A DNA stretch of 35,371 nt. Origin: an uncultured Mycoplasmatota bacterium (GTDB taxonomy: Bacteria > Bacillota_I > Bacilli_A > RF39 > UBA660). Each line of letters begins with the position of its first letter. Within the stretch, counting starts at the first letter, position 1. The notes beneath the pieces are model-generated. The model ran no database searches and had not been told where the DNA came from. It saw only the letters and a list, made by a program, of their open reading frames with translations. Made by a program: the position numbers and the translations under genes. Below are positions 21,471 through 31,256 of the stretch, piece after piece. Location: positions 1-35,371 of the forward strand of contig CAOJYR010000014.1 of assembly GCA_948465965.1 (NCBI GenBank), read 5' to 3'.

Positions 21471-22415
21471 TTATAAAGTTTTACTTTGTGTATTACTCTC
21501 AATAGATCTATCATTAAGCATATCTTCAAGTTCACTACTTATACTCTGCTCTTGCTTTGCTTTCATCTCTTGTTTTAAAGCGTATCTTTGAGCAGGTGTT
21601 AATTCACCTTCTCTATATATCATATCTTTATGCCAATTAACATCCTTGTCCTCAATCAAATGTACTAAATCAGTCATTACAGAAGATGCATAACCATCTC
21701 TAGCCATAAACCCTCTTCCATAATAATCACTATCAAAATCATGTGGAATACCAGCTTTTACATCTATACCATATTTTCGATATATCTTCATATTGTCTAC
21801 CGAAAATCCAGATGTAAAACTACCATCTGTAAAAATTCTCTCAATATCTTTAGTAGCAGGATATGCCCCTTGGAAACTATGTCCCGCCATTTTCATAGAA
21901 ATAATTACCCTAGTAAAATCATCCAACGTTCTTTTTAAGTCCATAATCTTAGCATCAGCCTCTTCTTTGGATAATTCGCTATTTAATAATTCATTTTGAT
22001 CATTTCTAATTTTTTTCTTAAAATCAGTTAAATACTTGTTAGAAAGAGTCTCATCAGTATTAAGTTTCTTTATTATCTCATTGAAATTTTCAGCATCAAA
22101 ATCAACACCTTGTTGAACCCAATTAGCAACTCTTTCCATATAAGGTTGTCTTTCCTGTTCTGCCTTTACACCCTGTCTAAATAAATATTCATGAAGTTCA
22201 GGAGATAGATTTTCTATTGAAGAACTACTAATACCATTTTCATTACCATATTTATGTGCCTCATTTATTCTTCCCATTCGTTCTAACTCTCTAACTTCAT
22301 CTTTTTCATATCTCTCATCTGTTTGATTATAAGCAACATTCACAGGTTCCGGAACAATCTTAGGACCATCCCCCTCTTCACGTACATAAGAACCATCCTT
22401 AGCCCAATAACCCAT
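21471..22415 (-). CDS. Hydrophilic protein of unknown function downstream of ftsZ
   Basis: A 314-residue, highly charged soluble protein that I do not recognise. It opens with MGYWAKDGSYVREEGDGP and has an extended, low-hydrophobicity N-terminal 70 residues, a helical, probably coiled-coil middle (about 105-175), and a more ordered part with FTSGFSVDNMKIYRKYGIDVKAG and DFDSDYYGRGFMARDGYA. The tail is glutamate/serine-rich. No signal peptide or membrane helix. GGAAGGTAGATAAT precedes ATG. It follows ftsZ by 129 bases beyond a likely terminator, so it may be transcribed separately. No function is inferred from position alone. Confidence 0.7.
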   Translation of the reverse strand: MGYWAKDGSYVREEGDGPKIVPEPVNVAYNQTDERYEKDEVRELERMGRINEAHKYGNENGISSSSIENLSPELHEYLFRQGVKAEQERQPYMERVANWVQQGVDFDAENFNEIIKKLNTDETLSNKYLTDFKKKIRNDQNELLNSELSKEEADAKIMDLKRTLDDFTRVIISMKMAGHSFQGAYPATKDIERIFTDGSFTSGFSVDNMKIYRKYGIDVKAGIPHDFDSDYYGRGFMARDGYASSVMTDLVHLIEDKDVNWHKDMIYREGELTPAQRYALKQEMKAKQEQSISSELEDMLNDRSIESNTQSKTL

Positions 22416-24951: not shown

Positions 24952-24980
24952 ATTATACTAGCAAATTAATAATTTGTCCA
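24952..24980 (-). promoter_or_regulatory. Sigma-A promoter of ftsA-ftsZ
   Basis: On the minus strand TGGACA (five of six), 17-base spacer, perfect TATAAT, 25 bases before the ftsA start. It allows ftsAZ to be expressed independently of the long upstream envelope operon. Confidence 0.7.
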
Positions 24981-24998: not shown

Positions 24999-26423
24999 TC
25001 ATTTTTTCATCTCATAAATAACTACTTTCTTATCACTAAATACTAAACTATAACTATCATTGTTATCTAAATAAGTTGCCAAACCAATATCTTTAGGAAT
25101 TATAAAATAATCAAAGTCATATTTTTTTATTATTTTTTCATATCCATACGCCAAACTAGATATTTTATAATAATCCTTATAATTATAATTAGAATATAAA
25201 TCAGCCCTACCATCAATAAAAACTGAAATATTACAATAAATTAAATAACCACCGTAATCATAATAATTATAAAGTCTTTTTGCATTTTTTGTTTTTATAT
25301 AAGAAACAACTTCATCATTTAAAACCTTTTTATTGATATTTTTAATAATCATTTTATTATTAATTGCAAAAATAATAATCAACAATATACTAAGTATAAA
25401 TAATACAAATTCTGTGCCATTATCATTTTTTCTACTAGGAATATAATAAAATATAATATAAGACATAACAATATAAGTATATGGCCAAAAGCGAATGCTT
25501 TTTAACCCCAAAAACAAAACAAAACAAAATAATAATAAATCAATCAATTTAATTTTTTTACTACTAAAAAGAAATACACAAACGATAATAATTATTAATA
25601 CAAAATAGGTATAATGAGAAAAATCATTTAAGTTTGTAGGTTGCCATTCGGCAATCGTTTTTAACATAAAACCATCCAACATATTCTGATAAGGATAAAA
25701 CAACATCTTTATACCATGTGGATTAACTGAAATACATAACACACACACAATCATAATTAAAAAGTATTTGAAAAATTGCTTTTTTGAATATCTTCTTGCA
25801 CTGATTTTTTTGAATGAAAAACCAAATATTCCACCTATCAAAAATACTAAAGACAATAAATAAGGTAAATTACTAGACCCTCCATGAACATTAGACCAAA
25901 TAATAGTAACAACAGGCAAAATAAGATACTTCTTAGAATTCTCATCTTGATAAAGATCATATAAGACCCAAATGGTAATTGCTAAAAGATTATAACTAAT
26001 TAAATGTGGACGACATTGAATAACTCCTATAAAAATCATTGATAATGAAAGCCAAAATAAACTAAACGGTATATTTTTTAAATATTCTTTCCTATTAGTC
26101 AAAAATAAAATTATCATCATCGAAAAAAGAAAAAGAAATGCATAAATAAAAATATGATAATTATTAGATACTAATTTAAGTAAATAAATAATAATCTCGA
26201 ATAACCATTCATGACTCATCCAATATTTACCCTTTACAATCCAAGAAAATATATCCCTAGTTAAAAATCTACTATTTTTCACCATATACTCTCCAGCCTT
26301 AATATGCCAAAAATAATCAGTCTCCCTAACCAAAAAAGACATTAAAAACAAAGAAAAACTAAATATAAGAAATAAATACAAGAAAAATATCTTTTTATTA
26401 ACAAAAAATTCTTTTATTTTCAT
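24999..26423 (-). CDS. GT-C type membrane glycosyltransferase-like protein, divergent member
   Basis: A 474-residue protein with about ten hydrophobic helices and a C-terminal soluble part. The first outside loop has TDYFWHIKAGEYM, where GT-C enzymes (PMT/ArnT-like families using polyprenyl-phosphate sugars) carry their catalytic acidic residue. Other landmarks are a later IWSNVHGGSS loop, SVNPHGIKMLFYP, and the C-terminal YDYGGYLIY and VFIDGRADLYSNY. This combination is typical of a widespread bacterial GT-C subfamily of unknown acceptor. It differs from the three upstream paralogues. AGAAGGG precedes ATG. Last gene of the envelope operon before the ftsA promoter. Confidence 0.7.
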   Translation of the reverse strand: MKIKEFFVNKKIFFLYLFLIFSFSLFLMSFLVRETDYFWHIKAGEYMVKNSRFLTRDIFSWIVKGKYWMSHEWLFEIIIYLLKLVSNNYHIFIYAFLFLFSMMIILFLTNRKEYLKNIPFSLFWLSLSMIFIGVIQCRPHLISYNLLAITIWVLYDLYQDENSKKYLILPVVTIIWSNVHGGSSNLPYLLSLVFLIGGIFGFSFKKISARRYSKKQFFKYFLIMIVCVLCISVNPHGIKMLFYPYQNMLDGFMLKTIAEWQPTNLNDFSHYTYFVLIIIIVCVFLFSSKKIKLIDLLLFCFVLFLGLKSIRFWPYTYIVMSYIIFYYIPSRKNDNGTEFVLFILSILLIIIFAINNKMIIKNINKKVLNDEVVSYIKTKNAKRLYNYYDYGGYLIYCNISVFIDGRADLYSNYNYKDYYKISSLAYGYEKIIKKYDFDYFIIPKDIGLATYLDNNDSYSLVFSDKKVVIYEMKK

Positions 26424-26459
26424 ATTAAAAATCCCTTCTACCTAAAATATATAACCAAA

Positions 26460-27779
26460 TTACTTTATAATATACACATCATAAATATCTATAGTATTTA
26501 TCTTCTTTCCATGTTCCATAATATATCTAATAGCCTGTTTATCTGTCTGCCTACCCCTTTTTAATTCATCCCTATCAATTAAAAATATATAATCATCCTT
26601 CGCTTTAATTTCTTTCAACAATTTATAACTACCATTGTAGCCCCAATTACCAACATTAATCAAATCTAAATAACTAATAGGATACCCATTAACAATTTTA
26701 AAATAATAACCATTGGAATCCAAAAAAACGAATTTGTTATAATTATTACTTTTTAAAAATCGATTAACATTATTAGTAAGAGAAATACCATCATTATCTA
26801 ACAATCTATACTCAAACGCCTTAATATTATTAGGATAAATTACAGGGTTAAGATCCCTAGTATTCCATACAATTAACGCTTCCCCCAAAACCACACCAAT
26901 ACTAAGCAATCTGCAATTAATAGGAATAGCTCTTTTTACATTTAATAAAATAATTACCAAAAAAGCCAAAAAGCCCTCCTGAAAATGTTTTATATCAAAA
27001 AGTGGGATAATTATACTATAGAAGGCCAAAGCATAATAATTAGAAATATTTTTCGGATCCCTTTTAATAAAAAATAATGTGAAAACAATCAATAGAATTA
27101 ATAATATAAAGTTGATATTAAGTATTTTCCCATTTCCAGAAGCAAAATCAAAAAGTCCGAATACACATAAATCTAAAAATGAATATAAAGAATTAGTGCA
27201 TATTAAATAAAGCAAAAAAAGAAGCACAGGTACACTAAACCCTAAAATACGTCTCAAAATTTTTTTAGGATATTTTAAATAAAATAAATTAGGTAATAAA
27301 AAACAGATACCTACACTTTGTTTAGTAAGAACACTTAGTGCTAATACAAAACCAATGAAATAATCATTAGCTTCCCTTTTCTCCAGCCAAACAATCAATA
27401 GAAACATAAAAAATAACAACAAATTATATCCCGGAAAAAAGATAGGTGTAGGAAAAAAGAAAAATAAAATTACTATCCAACTCTTCTCATCTAAAAGATC
27501 AAATAAAAAATATGAAAGCATTGTAAAAAGCAGAGCCTGCGTAATATGAAAAATTAATAAATTAGAACCAAACAAATGAAATACTAAAGATATTAAAAAC
27601 GGATATAGAGGTGTAACAACTATATTAAAATCTTTATATGGAACAAGGCTACTATAAATATTATGACTAAATCCATAGCTCCATATCTCATCCAAATCCG
27701 TAGGAGAAATAATTAAATTCCATATTAATATTATCGAAAATAAAATTATATATTTTAAAATAAACTTATATCTTTTCAT
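26460..27779 (-). CDS. GT-C type membrane glycosyltransferase-like protein (paralogue 3)
   Basis: A 439-residue polytopic protein. The first loop contains VPYKDFNIVVTPLYPFL, the acidic motif expected of GT-C enzymes; helices follow to about residue 300, then a soluble tail with NVGNWGYNGSYKLLKEIK. The segment NSLYSFLDLCVFGLFDFASG is shared nearly unchanged with the next two genes upstream, showing tandem duplication. Such enzymes transfer sugars from lipid carriers on the outer face; substrate unknown. The longest frame starts at GTG four codons upstream, but GAGGTGAGGAATATA favours this ATG. It begins 14 bases after the previous stop. Confidence 0.7.
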   Translation of the reverse strand: MKRYKFILKYIILFSIILIWNLIISPTDLDEIWSYGFSHNIYSSLVPYKDFNIVVTPLYPFLISLVFHLFGSNLLIFHITQALLFTMLSYFLFDLLDEKSWIVILFFFFPTPIFFPGYNLLLFFMFLLIVWLEKREANDYFIGFVLALSVLTKQSVGICFLLPNLFYLKYPKKILRRILGFSVPVLLFLLYLICTNSLYSFLDLCVFGLFDFASGNGKILNINFILLILLIVFTLFFIKRDPKNISNYYALAFYSIIIPLFDIKHFQEGFLAFLVIILLNVKRAIPINCRLLSIGVVLGEALIVWNTRDLNPVIYPNNIKAFEYRLLDNDGISLTNNVNRFLKSNNYNKFVFLDSNGYYFKIVNGYPISYLDLINVGNWGYNGSYKLLKEIKAKDDYIFLIDRDELKRGRQTDKQAIRYIMEHGKKINTIDIYDVYIIK

Positions 27780-27793
27780 TATATTCCTCACCT

Positions 27794-29167
27794 CTACTGT
27801 TTATAATACACATTATATTCATTAACACTTTCAATAAAATTAGAACTTTTTATTATATATTCAACAATTTCAGAGTCAAATTGTGTCAAACTATTAGAAA
27901 AATCTTTGCTGTACTTATAATCATTCATATTAACTATAAAATAAACGTCATTCATTTTTTTTATCCTTTTAATCATTTTCTTAGTTCCATTATAACCATA
28001 ATTACCACGATTTAAAATAGTAAAATAATTAGTCCTTTCCTCATTAATTATCTTCATCCAAATATCACCACAATTAGATATAAAAAACGTATTACCCTTA
28101 GCCCTATACTTTTTATAAACACCATTAGCAAGCATTACACTATTTTTAGATCCCTTAGAATTTACAAAATAATTAAAATTATTAATATTATGATATCTTT
28201 CAAGCCCCAATTCCATTTGATTCCAATTAATATAAAAAATAATATTTAATCCTATTATTAAAAAAGATAATAGTAATGATATATTTCTAATATACTTACC
28301 AGACAAAATACTTTTTCCAGAAATTATCAATAAGCTAAAAAATAATACATATACAAAAAAATGATATATAGAAAAATTAGGAATCATAATAAAGAAAGAG
28401 AAAACAACATACCAATTTAGAATTTTTTTGCGATTCCTTGTTAACACAAATAAAGAAACAAAAAACAAGATAAGTGACAAAGGAAAATAAACTATATGAA
28501 TAACAGTATTTTTAGAGGCAAAATCAAAAAGACCAAATACACATAAATCTAAAAAAGAATACAAACTATGAGTAATCAATAAATATATAAAAAAGATAAT
28601 ACAAGGAATAGTTAGACCAACAAATCTTTTTAAGATTTTCTTTTTATTTTTAAAATAATAAATAATACTAGGAAAAAGCAAAAATATCCCTACTGTATAT
28701 TTGGTAAGTAAAGTTAATCCTAAAAAAAATCCTATTAAGTAATCACTTTTCTTTTTTTCTTCTAAATATAATACTATGGTAGTTAGAAAAAATAAAAAAT
28801 AATTATAAGTAGGAGAAAAGGATACAAAAATAGGAAAACACATAATAGGAAGTAACATCCAAGCCCTATTATCATACATTTTATATAAAAAATAAAAATT
28901 TACAGTAATTAATATAGCCTGCTCTATTAAAAAAACTATATTATTATGAGAAATAAAAATTAAACCTAAAGACATTATAAAATTATAAAAAGGCGGAATA
29001 ATCATAGTAAAATCAAGATAAGGCAATTCCCCCTTAGCCATAGAATAGCTGAATCCATAATTCCAAATAGCATCCCAACTATTTGTATACATACCAAAAA
29101 AGACCATAACAAACAAAGTAAAAACAAAAACAAAAATGTATTTTAAATTACTTCTAACTAAACTCAT
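27794..29167 (-). CDS. GT-C type membrane glycosyltransferase-like protein (paralogue 2)
   Basis: A 457-residue polytopic protein with LPYLDFTMIIPPFYNFI in the first outer loop, about ten helices, HSLYSFLDLCVFGLFDFASK in the middle, and a soluble tail containing NRGNYGYNGTKKMIKRIKK. It shares these three blocks with the flanking paralogues, although the first block is the most divergent (TMIIPP instead of NMVVTP). The GTG four codons upstream gives a longer frame, but the GGTG site fits the ATG chosen. Sugar donor and acceptor cannot be told from sequence. Confidence 0.7.
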   Translation of the reverse strand: MSLVRSNLKYIFVFVFTLFVMVFFGMYTNSWDAIWNYGFSYSMAKGELPYLDFTMIIPPFYNFIMSLGLIFISHNNIVFLIEQAILITVNFYFLYKMYDNRAWMLLPIMCFPIFVSFSPTYNYFLFFLTTIVLYLEEKKKSDYLIGFFLGLTLLTKYTVGIFLLFPSIIYYFKNKKKILKRFVGLTIPCIIFFIYLLITHSLYSFLDLCVFGLFDFASKNTVIHIVYFPLSLILFFVSLFVLTRNRKKILNWYVVFSFFIMIPNFSIYHFFVYVLFFSLLIISGKSILSGKYIRNISLLLSFLIIGLNIIFYINWNQMELGLERYHNINNFNYFVNSKGSKNSVMLANGVYKKYRAKGNTFFISNCGDIWMKIINEERTNYFTILNRGNYGYNGTKKMIKRIKKMNDVYFIVNMNDYKYSKDFSNSLTQFDSEIVEYIIKSSNFIESVNEYNVYYKQ

Positions 29168-29206
29168 ACAACCACACACCCTCTCTTTTTAATAAACTTC
29201 ATCATA

Positions 29207-30562
29207 TTACTCCTTATAATATATATCATAATTTCCAATCGTTTTTATATTTTTAAACTGCCTAACCTCATTACTCAACTCTTTAATATATTGTTGACAA
29301 TCATCAGTATTATTATATAAACTTTTATCAATAACAAATATTGCATCGCTGATTTTTCTTAATCTATTTAAAATTTTATTAACTCCATCATACCCGTAGT
29401 TGCCATAATTAGGCAAATCAAAGTAATCAATTTCTTTATCATTGATAATTTTGTAAAAATAGTTCTCTGATCCCCTTAAAAGGTAAATAACATTACAATC
29501 TTTATTATCTAAGTATTCATTCAGTTCGAAAACATTATTAATATAACGTCTAGATGTAATAGTAATCTCAAAGTTATGATAACTTGTAATAACCATATCT
29601 TTCAAAAAGATTTTCTCAACACCAAACCATATAAAAGCCAAAGAAATTATAAATAGAATTGCTTGTTTGCAAATATGCTCCCTTTTTAAATTATAATCAC
29701 CTAAAAAAACATATATGAACACCAATAAAAATAAAGAAACATGATAATAATCAACAATAGGAACAACAACAATAGAAAAACATAAGGCATAATAATAAAT
29801 TATATTATGTTTGTTTTTTAATGTTTTCGCAAATAAAAATAGAAAAGAAAATATAAATAATAACAGATAAAACACATCAATAGAATGATTATAATCACCA
29901 AAATCAAAAAGACCTAAAAAACACAAATCTATAAAATTATATAAACTATGTGAAACTATTAAGTATATAACCAAAATAAATACAGGGATAATATACCCCA
30001 CTAACCTTTTAGCAAACCTAACCCTATCCTTAATTAAATAATAAAAGCAAGGAACAAATAAACTAAGTCCAATTGTTTGTTTTGAACAAAATATTAATCC
30101 TAAAATAAAACCTATCAAATAATCACTTTTCTTGTTTTGCTCCAAATAAATCAAAATAACAAACAGGAAAAAAGCTAAAAAATTATATCCGGGAAACAAA
30201 GTACTAACCATAGCTACAGGATAAGGAATACAAAGACAAACCAAGAATAGCCAAGCTTTTTCACCAAGCAATTTAAATAAAAAATAAAACATTATAGTCA
30301 AAAGTATGGCCTGTTCTAAATAATAAATAATAATAGATTTAGAAAACAAAAGTCCAATTGAATACAAAAAAGGTGCAAAGGGAGTAACAACCATATTAAA
30401 GTCTCTATAAGGTACCTCGCCGATACTTATAGCATAACTAAAACCAAAATTAACATAAGTGTCATTTTTGCTTAATGTATAAAAATAAACAAGTCCGAAA
30501 AAGAAAAAGAAAAACAACATTATATATTTAGTATAATAAAAGATTTTCTTATTAGTCATCAT
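29207..30562 (-). CDS. GT-C type membrane glycosyltransferase-like protein (paralogue 1)
   Basis: A 451-residue polytopic protein. The first loop carries VPYRDFNMVVTPFAPFL, the middle SHSLYNFIDLCFLGLFDFGD, and the tail NYGNYGYDGVNKILNRLRK, matching the two downstream paralogues block by block. It is the first of the series, starting 4 bases after the divIB stop; AAGGAGTAATTAT, which includes that stop, is its ribosome site. The longer open frame into divIB is therefore not used. This tight junction shows that the glycosyltransferase block is transcribed with the division genes. Confidence 0.72.
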   Translation of the reverse strand: MMTNKKIFYYTKYIMLFFFFFFGLVYFYTLSKNDTYVNFGFSYAISIGEVPYRDFNMVVTPFAPFLYSIGLLFSKSIIIYYLEQAILLTIMFYFLFKLLGEKAWLFLVCLCIPYPVAMVSTLFPGYNFLAFFLFVILIYLEQNKKSDYLIGFILGLIFCSKQTIGLSLFVPCFYYLIKDRVRFAKRLVGYIIPVFILVIYLIVSHSLYNFIDLCFLGLFDFGDYNHSIDVFYLLLFIFSFLFLFAKTLKNKHNIIYYYALCFSIVVVPIVDYYHVSLFLLVFIYVFLGDYNLKREHICKQAILFIISLAFIWFGVEKIFLKDMVITSYHNFEITITSRRYINNVFELNEYLDNKDCNVIYLLRGSENYFYKIINDKEIDYFDLPNYGNYGYDGVNKILNRLRKISDAIFVIDKSLYNNTDDCQQYIKELSNEVRQFKNIKTIGNYDIYYKE

Positions 30563-30566
30563 ATAA

Positions 30567-31256
30567 TTACTCCTTAATCTGAAAATGATTCCCATTATCT
30601 AAATATAAAATTCCTTTTTTATCTTCCAATTGACTTAAAACATCATTATAATAATTTATCATTTTAAATTTAGTTAATGTTAAATAAACCATATTCCCAT
30701 CATCCATATAAAGTAAAAATCGATCTTTATCATAATCATTCGGTTGATATTCAATATCAGAAATTTTTCCTAAAATATCACTATTTATATTTTTCATCCC
30801 CTTAACAAAAGATGAATACTTATCATCCGGAACATAATTTATTACTCTAGGAATTCTAAATAAGTCAATTTTTTCATCGACTGAAATTTCCTCTTTGTTT
30901 TCAAAAACAATTGTATTTTTACCACTATTGATAAATAAAGCCTTATTCTCTTTTATCTTTATAACAAGAATATGATAAAACTCCCTTTTAACATCCACAT
31001 CTTCTATATATACTGATTTAAGTAATTTTTTTCTTAGGCTTCTACTAGAAGTCAAATAGAAGCTAGGATAATCTTTTATTCCAGCCATATCAATAATATA
31101 ATCGTCATTTAGATAATTATTACCTTCAATAATTATATTCTTAGTATTTGTATTTAAAAATAAATAAGTGCTAAAAACTAGTCCTCCTAAAAACAGAAGT
31201 ACTAGTAATAACGTAAATACCTTAAGTTTTCTTTTTTTGACGATTTTTTTTGCCAT
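30567..31256 (-). CDS. divIB: Cell division protein DivIB/FtsQ
   Basis: A 229-residue bitopic membrane protein of the divisome, which with DivIC and FtsL regulates septal wall synthesis. It has a basic cytoplasmic tail (KKIVKKRKLK), one membrane helix at about 12-34, then an external POTRA domain (about 38-105: TKNIIIEGNNYLNDDYIIDMAGI and YIEDVDVKREFYHILVIKIKENKAL) and a beta-rich C-terminal domain. The family is poorly conserved, but topology, domain order and position after murB make the call firm. GGGAGTAATGT precedes ATG, overlapping the murB stop region. Confidence 0.9.
   Translation of the reverse strand: MAKKIVKKRKLKVFTLLLVLLFLGGLVFSTYLFLNTNTKNIIIEGNNYLNDDYIIDMAGIKDYPSFYLTSSRSLRKKLLKSVYIEDVDVKREFYHILVIKIKENKALFINSGKNTIVFENKEEISVDEKIDLFRIPRVINYVPDDKYSSFVKGMKNINSDILGKISDIEYQPNDYDKDRFLLYMDDGNMVYLTLTKFKMINYYNDVLSQLEDKKGILYLDNGNHFQIKE

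Follow-up and report, generated by a model that had tools for sequence, protein, structure and literature searches.

The division and cell wall (dcw) cluster of an uncultured Mycoplasmatota bacterium (lineage RF39, UBA660) contains four genes for predicted GT-C glycosyltransferases, here called gtA, gtB, gtC and gtD, between divIB and ftsA. The window, the whole stretch of 35,371 nucleotides that we analysed, is one complete contig (CAOJYR010000014.1, our C14); the genome comprises 45 contigs and 1.29 Mb. We think that the four genes probably constitute a glycosylation module that acts at the outer surface, depends on polyprenyl-phosphate sugars and is co-expressed with murG, murB and divIB. 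The enzymatic class itself (a GT-C enzyme of the outer face with a polyprenyl-phosphate sugar as donor) is well supported by the predicted folds and by what is known of the superfamily. The chemistry is known, the dcw-embedded arrangement is new, and the block is a lineage-specific variable hot spot within the dcw cluster.

As the initial annotation had it, four polytopic genes lie on one strand between divIB and ftsA, and the first starts 4 nt past the divIB stop (the gtA ATG at 30562; an alternative ATG upstream, at 30595, would overlap divIB). The order on the minus strand is murG, murB, divIB, gtA-gtB-gtC-gtD, ftsA and ftsZ (Table 1), and 72 nt separate the gtD stop from ftsA. All four frames of the block are intact. 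The four had been annotated as a single set of GT-C-like proteins. All four do appear to be GT-C proteins, gtC and gtD by predicted models and gtA and gtB by homology, but the set comprises three paralogues plus a separate, STT3-like gtD.

The strongest case among the paralogues is gtC. Its AlphaFold2 model (114 sequences) has a predicted local distance difference test score (pLDDT) of 95.0 and a predicted template modelling score (pTM) of 0.93. The top Foldseek matches are ArnT (E 1.7e-4 and 4.7e-4), and in the VIA structural comparison Pmt4/Pmt2 (Z 19.1 over 302-304 residues) and ArnT (Z 18.7 over 389 residues) are tied. We regard a GT-C fold of the PMT/ArnT type, including the first outer loop, as well supported for gtC by this model. 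The same fold is likely for gtA and gtB, given pairwise identities of about 35% among the three (gtA is 35-36% identical to gtB and gtC) and conservation across the family. D30 (112 of 114 homologues), which is the acidic residue of the first outer loop, H265 (114 of 114) and K153 are near-invariant in gtA-C and would fit a GT-C active site. Sub-threshold matches to PMT_2 (PF13231; curated cut-off 26.1 bits) were obtained with gtA (17 bits, E 0.007) and gtC (13.3 bits), and among 32 relatives 8 match PMT_2 at E <=0.01 (best 4.6e-7) and 5 match GT87 (2e-5). In phylogenetic analysis gtA falls in a clade of slot genes, that is, genes in the divIB-ftsA gap, from several genera (SH-aLRT 98), and gtB falls in a separate old clade (SH-aLRT 100). 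The three genes fall into three different clades, each spread over several genera, and so have been retained as paralogues for a long time rather than duplicated recently. These old clades are found largely in the slot.

The gtD protein aligns poorly with gtA-C and represents a separate family. Its AlphaFold2 model (10 sequences; pLDDT 89.4, pTM 0.88) matches human STT3A best in VIA, with Z 19.8 (427 residues aligned, root-mean-square deviation 3.8), followed by AglB (18.1), PglB (16.4), PMT (14.7) and ArnT (13.4). The C-terminal domain gives Z 8.9 to AglB-S2 over 105 residues. These predictions support the view that gtD is a compact protein with the GT-C fold of oligosaccharyltransferase (OST) catalytic subunits, and PF02516 (STT3/OST) is not among the matches with E <=1 for 10 gtD relatives. 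D36, the acidic residue of the first outer loop, R138, N178 and E259 are conserved in 41 of 41 homologues and R311 in 40, a pattern that would fit a GT-C active site. Residues 387-394 read YYDYGGYL; the third position of this motif is D in 28 of 41 homologues, and G391 is present in all 41. Helical membrane proteins can reach Z of about 13 through helix arrangement alone. The structure matches of gtC and gtD, however, span whole chains and are nearly all GT-C enzymes, and the first unrelated rows in the gtD list have Z of about 6, far below the GT-C matches. Almost all high-probability Foldseek matches of both proteins are GT-C enzymes that use lipid-linked donors.

Most genomes of the clade have a gtD orthologue, but it usually occupies a different conserved site. 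In the genus of the window gtD has joined the block, whereas in most sister genera it is elsewhere in the genome. Outside the dcw cluster, gtD adjoins gtA-C relatives in five loci (L205, L206, L208, L209 and L210; L numbers are our locus handles and G numbers our genome handles) and is near them in two others (L207 and L211). At the conserved place in sister genera (L214-L222) gtD adjoins a gene of about 250 aa that is RecX-like by eye, and opposite gtD are genes for a PrsA-like lipoprotein and a HIT-family protein (both by eye). A single in-frame TAG is present in the gtD gene of each of two species of genus g18 (L202 of G020, and G331:C1:254011-255402).

The block is probably co-expressed with murG, murB and divIB from the tail of their transcript, as judged from gene spacing, the single strand and the lack of an intergenic terminator-like site. 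In most relatives 3-8 nt separate the divIB stop from the first slot gene, and our scan found no terminator-like site between genes of the murG-to-ftsA stretch; matches fall inside genes. The genes for surface glycosylation and for cell-wall synthesis may thus be expressed jointly. The annotated promoter of ftsAZ after the block holds up as a promoter-like site. A TGGACA-17-TATAAT site in the gtD-ftsA gap has 11 of 12 matches, and an equally good site was found in 0 of 100 shuffles. Because promoter-like sites are frequent in this AT-rich region (87 found versus 79 expected), the point is carried not by this single match but by conservation of the TATAAT box: nearly all relatives examined, whether or not they have the block, carry it at about the same distance ahead of ftsA.

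The same insertion recurs in related genomes across genera, with variable content. Within the genus, one genome (G003) has gtA, gtC and gtD in the divIB-ftsA gap, in a second (G002), at the end of a contig, gtC and gtD precede ftsA, and in a third (G001) divIB and ftsA meet in a clean junction of 64 nt. Loci fetched around ftsA across the family contain 0-5 gtA-C genes per gap, and L110 has six plus a GT39 protein, so the overall range is 0-6. Two gtA-C family motifs, scanned against 84,980 species genomes, yielded 72 loci, several of which are on the same contigs as other fetched loci, so the counts of the two sets are not additive. Of these 72, 45 lie wholly between divIB and ftsA, one is mixed, 15 are elsewhere and 11 are truncated next to divIB or ftsA, where the contig stops (among the 11 are L155 and L159, which are positioned before murG). 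The block is not a product of chance, since intact homologues occupy the same gap in 45 of the 72 loci. Within the window's family, 68 of 372 genomes, from 33 of 150 genera, carry gtA-C genes, and among 188 sampled genomes of the class, many of them from that family, such genes were seen in that family only. One gtA-C locus (L160) bears the title of a Clostridia metagenome-assembled genome. The relatives come from ruminant and rabbit gut.

On an FtsA tree, slot presence requires 7 changes. The slot block was probably gained before one large clade and then lost repeatedly; because the tree is unrooted, we infer gain and loss rather than read them directly. The repeated losses, which leave clean junctions, indicate that division does not need the block. 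The coupling to septal wall genes that was initially proposed stands as gene order only. Clean junctions, which the initial annotation had named as counter-evidence along with a missing GT-C fold or pseudogenes, do exist, even within the genus, but neither a missing fold nor pseudogenes were found. A gtA-C relative also stands directly upstream of murG in L155, L159 and L283, and L127 has genes at both dcw positions. This second position hints that association of gtA-C with wall genes arose more than once.

Table 1. Coordinates of the block and its flanking dcw genes in the window
Feature	Position	Strand	Evidence and role
murG	33249-32173	minus	TIGR01133, 313 bits; likely first gene of the train reading into the block
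murB	32180-31260	minus	NF010480, 331 bits; in the murG train
divIB/ftsQ	31256-30567	minus	FtsQ-type POTRA domain (POTRA_1), E 2.5e-12; upstream flank of the block
gtA	30562-29207	minus	451 aa, polytopic, about 9-10 transmembrane segments; predicted GT-C paralogue 1
gtB	29158-27794 (alternative start 29179)	minus	454 aa; predicted GT-C paralogue 2
gtC	27779-26460 (alternative start 27791)	minus	439 aa from 27779; predicted GT-C paralogue 3
gtD	26423-24999	minus	474 aa; predicted STT3/AglB/PglB-like GT-C with a small C-terminal domain
Promoter-like site of ftsAZ	24952-24980	minus	TGGACA-17-TATAAT, between gtD and ftsA
ftsA	24926-23688	minus	TIGR01174, 198.5 bits, over cut-off; downstream flank of the block
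ftsZ	23675-22545	minus	TIGR00065, 425.6 bits

Some other origins of the block were considered and ruled out. Recent foreign DNA does not fit the G+C content at third codon positions, which is 0.17-0.21 in the block and equal to that of the neighbours (0.16-0.20). Pseudogenes do not fit the full-length frames in the window and the 168 homologous open reading frames of 400-480 aa. Mis-assembly of this contig does not fit the recurrence of the arrangement in independent genomes. Downstream of ftsZ, positions 21471-22415 (minus strand) encode a 314-aa protein with no Pfam or NCBIfam match over cut-off, and an Rfam search of the window found no RNA element.

The genome contains plausible sources of donor sugar. 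It encodes two GtrA proteins, a PgfS-like GT2 protein in two 99% identical copies (L265:5979-6950 and L267:2626-3573, on contigs C9 and C17) that lie in two different glycan gene clusters, and DPMS-like GT2 proteins, one of whose genes is directly before a GtrA gene. This DPMS-like/GtrA pair is clustered with PF04464, an ABC-2 exporter and the ATPase of the exporter. The PgfS-like protein scores 326.7 bits against an NF047588 cut-off of 500 and is related, not an equivalog. The presence of GtrA, PgfS-like and DPMS-like proteins in the same genome makes the donor route plausible. The GtrA/GtrB-like genes on C9 and C17 and the block on C14 are not one locus.

We postulate that cytoplasmic GT2 synthases of the PgfS/GtrB-like and DPMS-like types, encoded elsewhere in the genome beside GtrA-type proteins, would make polyprenyl-phosphate sugars, and that these lipid-linked sugars would be flipped outward. 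Each of gtA, gtB and gtC could then transfer a sugar from a lipid-linked donor onto an acceptor at the surface; the likely catalytic base is the conserved Asp in the first outer loop. The gtD protein might serve as an STT3-like partner on the same glycoconjugate. Translation of the block from the tail of a putative murG-murB-divIB transcript would tie surface glycosylation to wall growth, and ftsAZ would keep its own promoter.

What is glycosylated is a matter on which we can only lean, and our leaning is toward filament proteins over a teichoic-type polymer. Protein acceptors are favoured by the neighbourhoods of the non-slot copies. A tad, prepilin-like or SipW-type gene lies within three genes in 18 of 44 non-slot gtA-C loci, or in 16 of 41 when the duplicate contigs L285, L289 and L297 are removed, compared with a background of 10 of 127 genes (8%) of >=300 aa; when related loci are grouped, about 12 of 33 independent cases have filament genes. 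The tad class was called by BLAST, and the prepilin and SipW classes by loose patterns. The p-value of 2e-9 overstates the case, because the loci were partly seen beforehand and two of the three classes are pattern-based. We judge that secreted or surface filament proteins (pilin, tad or SipW-type) are the acceptor with a likelihood only just short of evenly balanced. It is rather unlikely that the family is dedicated to pilus or filament glycosylation, with a dcw-built system that glycosylates filament proteins in step with septal wall synthesis. In three loci (L145:7920-9314 and the regions of L290:6718 and L301:6976) gtA-C relatives are in tad operons, between TadC-type and TadE/CpaE-type genes. 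The window itself has two type IV pilin-like genes (KKGFTLIELL and KRGFTLVELL) at 72-1210 on the minus strand, about 24-29 kb from the block, whose products are candidate acceptors.

Several observations weigh against a surface glycosylation module with this donor route and these acceptors. In searches of Pfam and NCBIfam nothing scored over cut-off for gtA-D, and a sequence-profile search of the PDB with the glycosyltransferases of the window detected no relative. Filament neighbours are lacking for 25 of the 41 non-slot copies, and some of the filament loci had been noticed before the test was counted. The companions found in the slot (LTA-synthase-like protein, CDP-alcohol transferase, DUF6056, UGM-like protein and GtrA) point to a glycopolymer or glycolipid. 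G001, the block-minus genome of the same genus, gave no match to gtA-C, gtD or the PgfS-like protein and yet retains a GtrA and DPMS-like pair. The PgfS-like GT2 occurs in 266 of 372 genomes, yet it is absent from at least one genome that has gt genes (G016). Because PgfS-like genes are so widespread, their co-absence with the block in G001 is only suggestive, and we rejected the PgfS-like GT2 as a strict marker of the block.

The location could also have little to do with division. The slot might be a tolerant insertion site with no functional tie to it, where cargo profits from the constantly expressed murG train and the ftsA promoter insulates ftsAZ. We consider this a real possibility, if one somewhat short of even. 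Unrelated cargo does occur in the same gap, such as a PRPS-like gene (by eye; L058:4151-5236, and L059) in one genus without gtA-C there and an M23 peptidase in L065; many relatives have clean junctions; and the ftsA -10 box is kept whatever stands upstream. However, the cargo is mostly envelope-related, gtA, gtB and gtC are all members of old clades whose genes are largely in the slot, and gtD moved into the slot beside gtA-C in one genus. A tolerant site would be a statement about location and could hold together with the enzymatic reading.

The acceptor could instead be a wall- or lipid-linked glycopolymer, of the teichoic or lipoteichoic acid (LTA) type, or a glycolipid, which we regard as possible but somewhat doubtful. 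Here gtA-C would add side-chain sugars after polymerisation, as Gtr proteins do in serotype conversion, and the copy number of 0-6 among relatives would reflect antigenic or phage-driven variation. Companions in the gap fit this idea: besides GT39/PMT_2 proteins, relatives have a CDP-alcohol transferase (CDP-OH_P) with an LTA-synthase-like sulfatase (L055 and L130), DUF6056 (L047), GtrA with a GDSL hydrolase (L069 and L075), and, by eye, methyltransferase-like and sulfatase-like proteins (L127). A UGM-like FAD protein (NF005546) that might make a donor sugar accompanies gtD or gtA-C in L151, L153, L156, L161, L163 and L207. In L151, L153, L156, L161 and L163 it is a companion in the slot, whereas L207 is outside the dcw cluster (coordinates L151:14819-16360, L153:12022-13563, L156:13297-14871, L163:9685-11220 and L207:5625-7214). 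One PgfS-like synthase copy of the genome itself is clustered with PF04464 and an ABC-2 exporter. On the other hand, polymer genes other than the GT-Cs are missing from most slot loci, non-slot copies prefer filament-protein neighbourhoods, and the predicted fold of gtD most resembles that of protein glycosyltransferases, even if the acceptor does not follow from the fold. Decoration of peptidoglycan or lipid II, in which the glycosylated septal wall precursors would explain the murG-murB-divIB location and the second dcw position before murG, is very unlikely, as the block has repeatedly been lost completely from otherwise intact clusters, copies occur in tad operons far from wall genes, and no GT-C enzyme with activity on lipid II is known to us.

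The proposed outer-surface module resembles several known systems in part. In the three-component GtrA/GtrB/GT-C systems a GT-C enzyme uses a polyprenyl-phosphate sugar (PMC11127046). Like these, the block has a GT-C enzyme predicted outside the membrane, the genome has GtrB-like and GtrA-like proteins, and in some relatives GtrA is in the same slot; unlike them, it has several paralogous GT-Cs in the dcw cluster, apart from the synthase genes. The Pgf system of Streptococcus mutans modifies surface adhesins by means of PgfS and a pair of membrane proteins (PMC5856776). That system (PgfS-PgfM1-PgfE-PgfM2) shares with ours a PgfS-like GT2, polytopic partners of about 10 transmembrane segments (a likeness by topology) and surface glycosylation in Bacilli, whereas our block is not in an operon with PgfS or an epimerase. 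ArnT and PMT (GT83 and GT39) are similar to gtC in predicted fold and in the conserved first-loop Asp, but the window proteins are shorter and have no significant PDB sequence match, and their PMT_2 matches are under the Pfam cut-off. STT3, AglB and PglB are similar to gtD in predicted fold over the whole length and in the AglB-S2-like C-terminal domain, and the YYDYG of gtD could correspond in position to the WWDYG motif of OST. In contrast to them, gtD is only 474 aa, lacks a PF02516 match and has Asn-x-His (N178, H180) where OST probably has its DXD-type motif. A literature search that covered few subscription journals found no description of a dcw-embedded GT-C block.

The divIB-ftsA junction is usually among the tightest of the dcw cluster. 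In this family it is a variable hot spot for predicted outer-surface glycosyltransferases. Standard teichoic-acid pathways are reportedly missing from related uncultured orders of Bacilli (PMC10868615), which raises the question of how such cells are coated. The block supplies candidate enzymes for this coat, a candidate partner in gtD and natural block-minus relatives, and the filament-associated copies may provide an entry to pilus glycosylation in tiny gut genomes.

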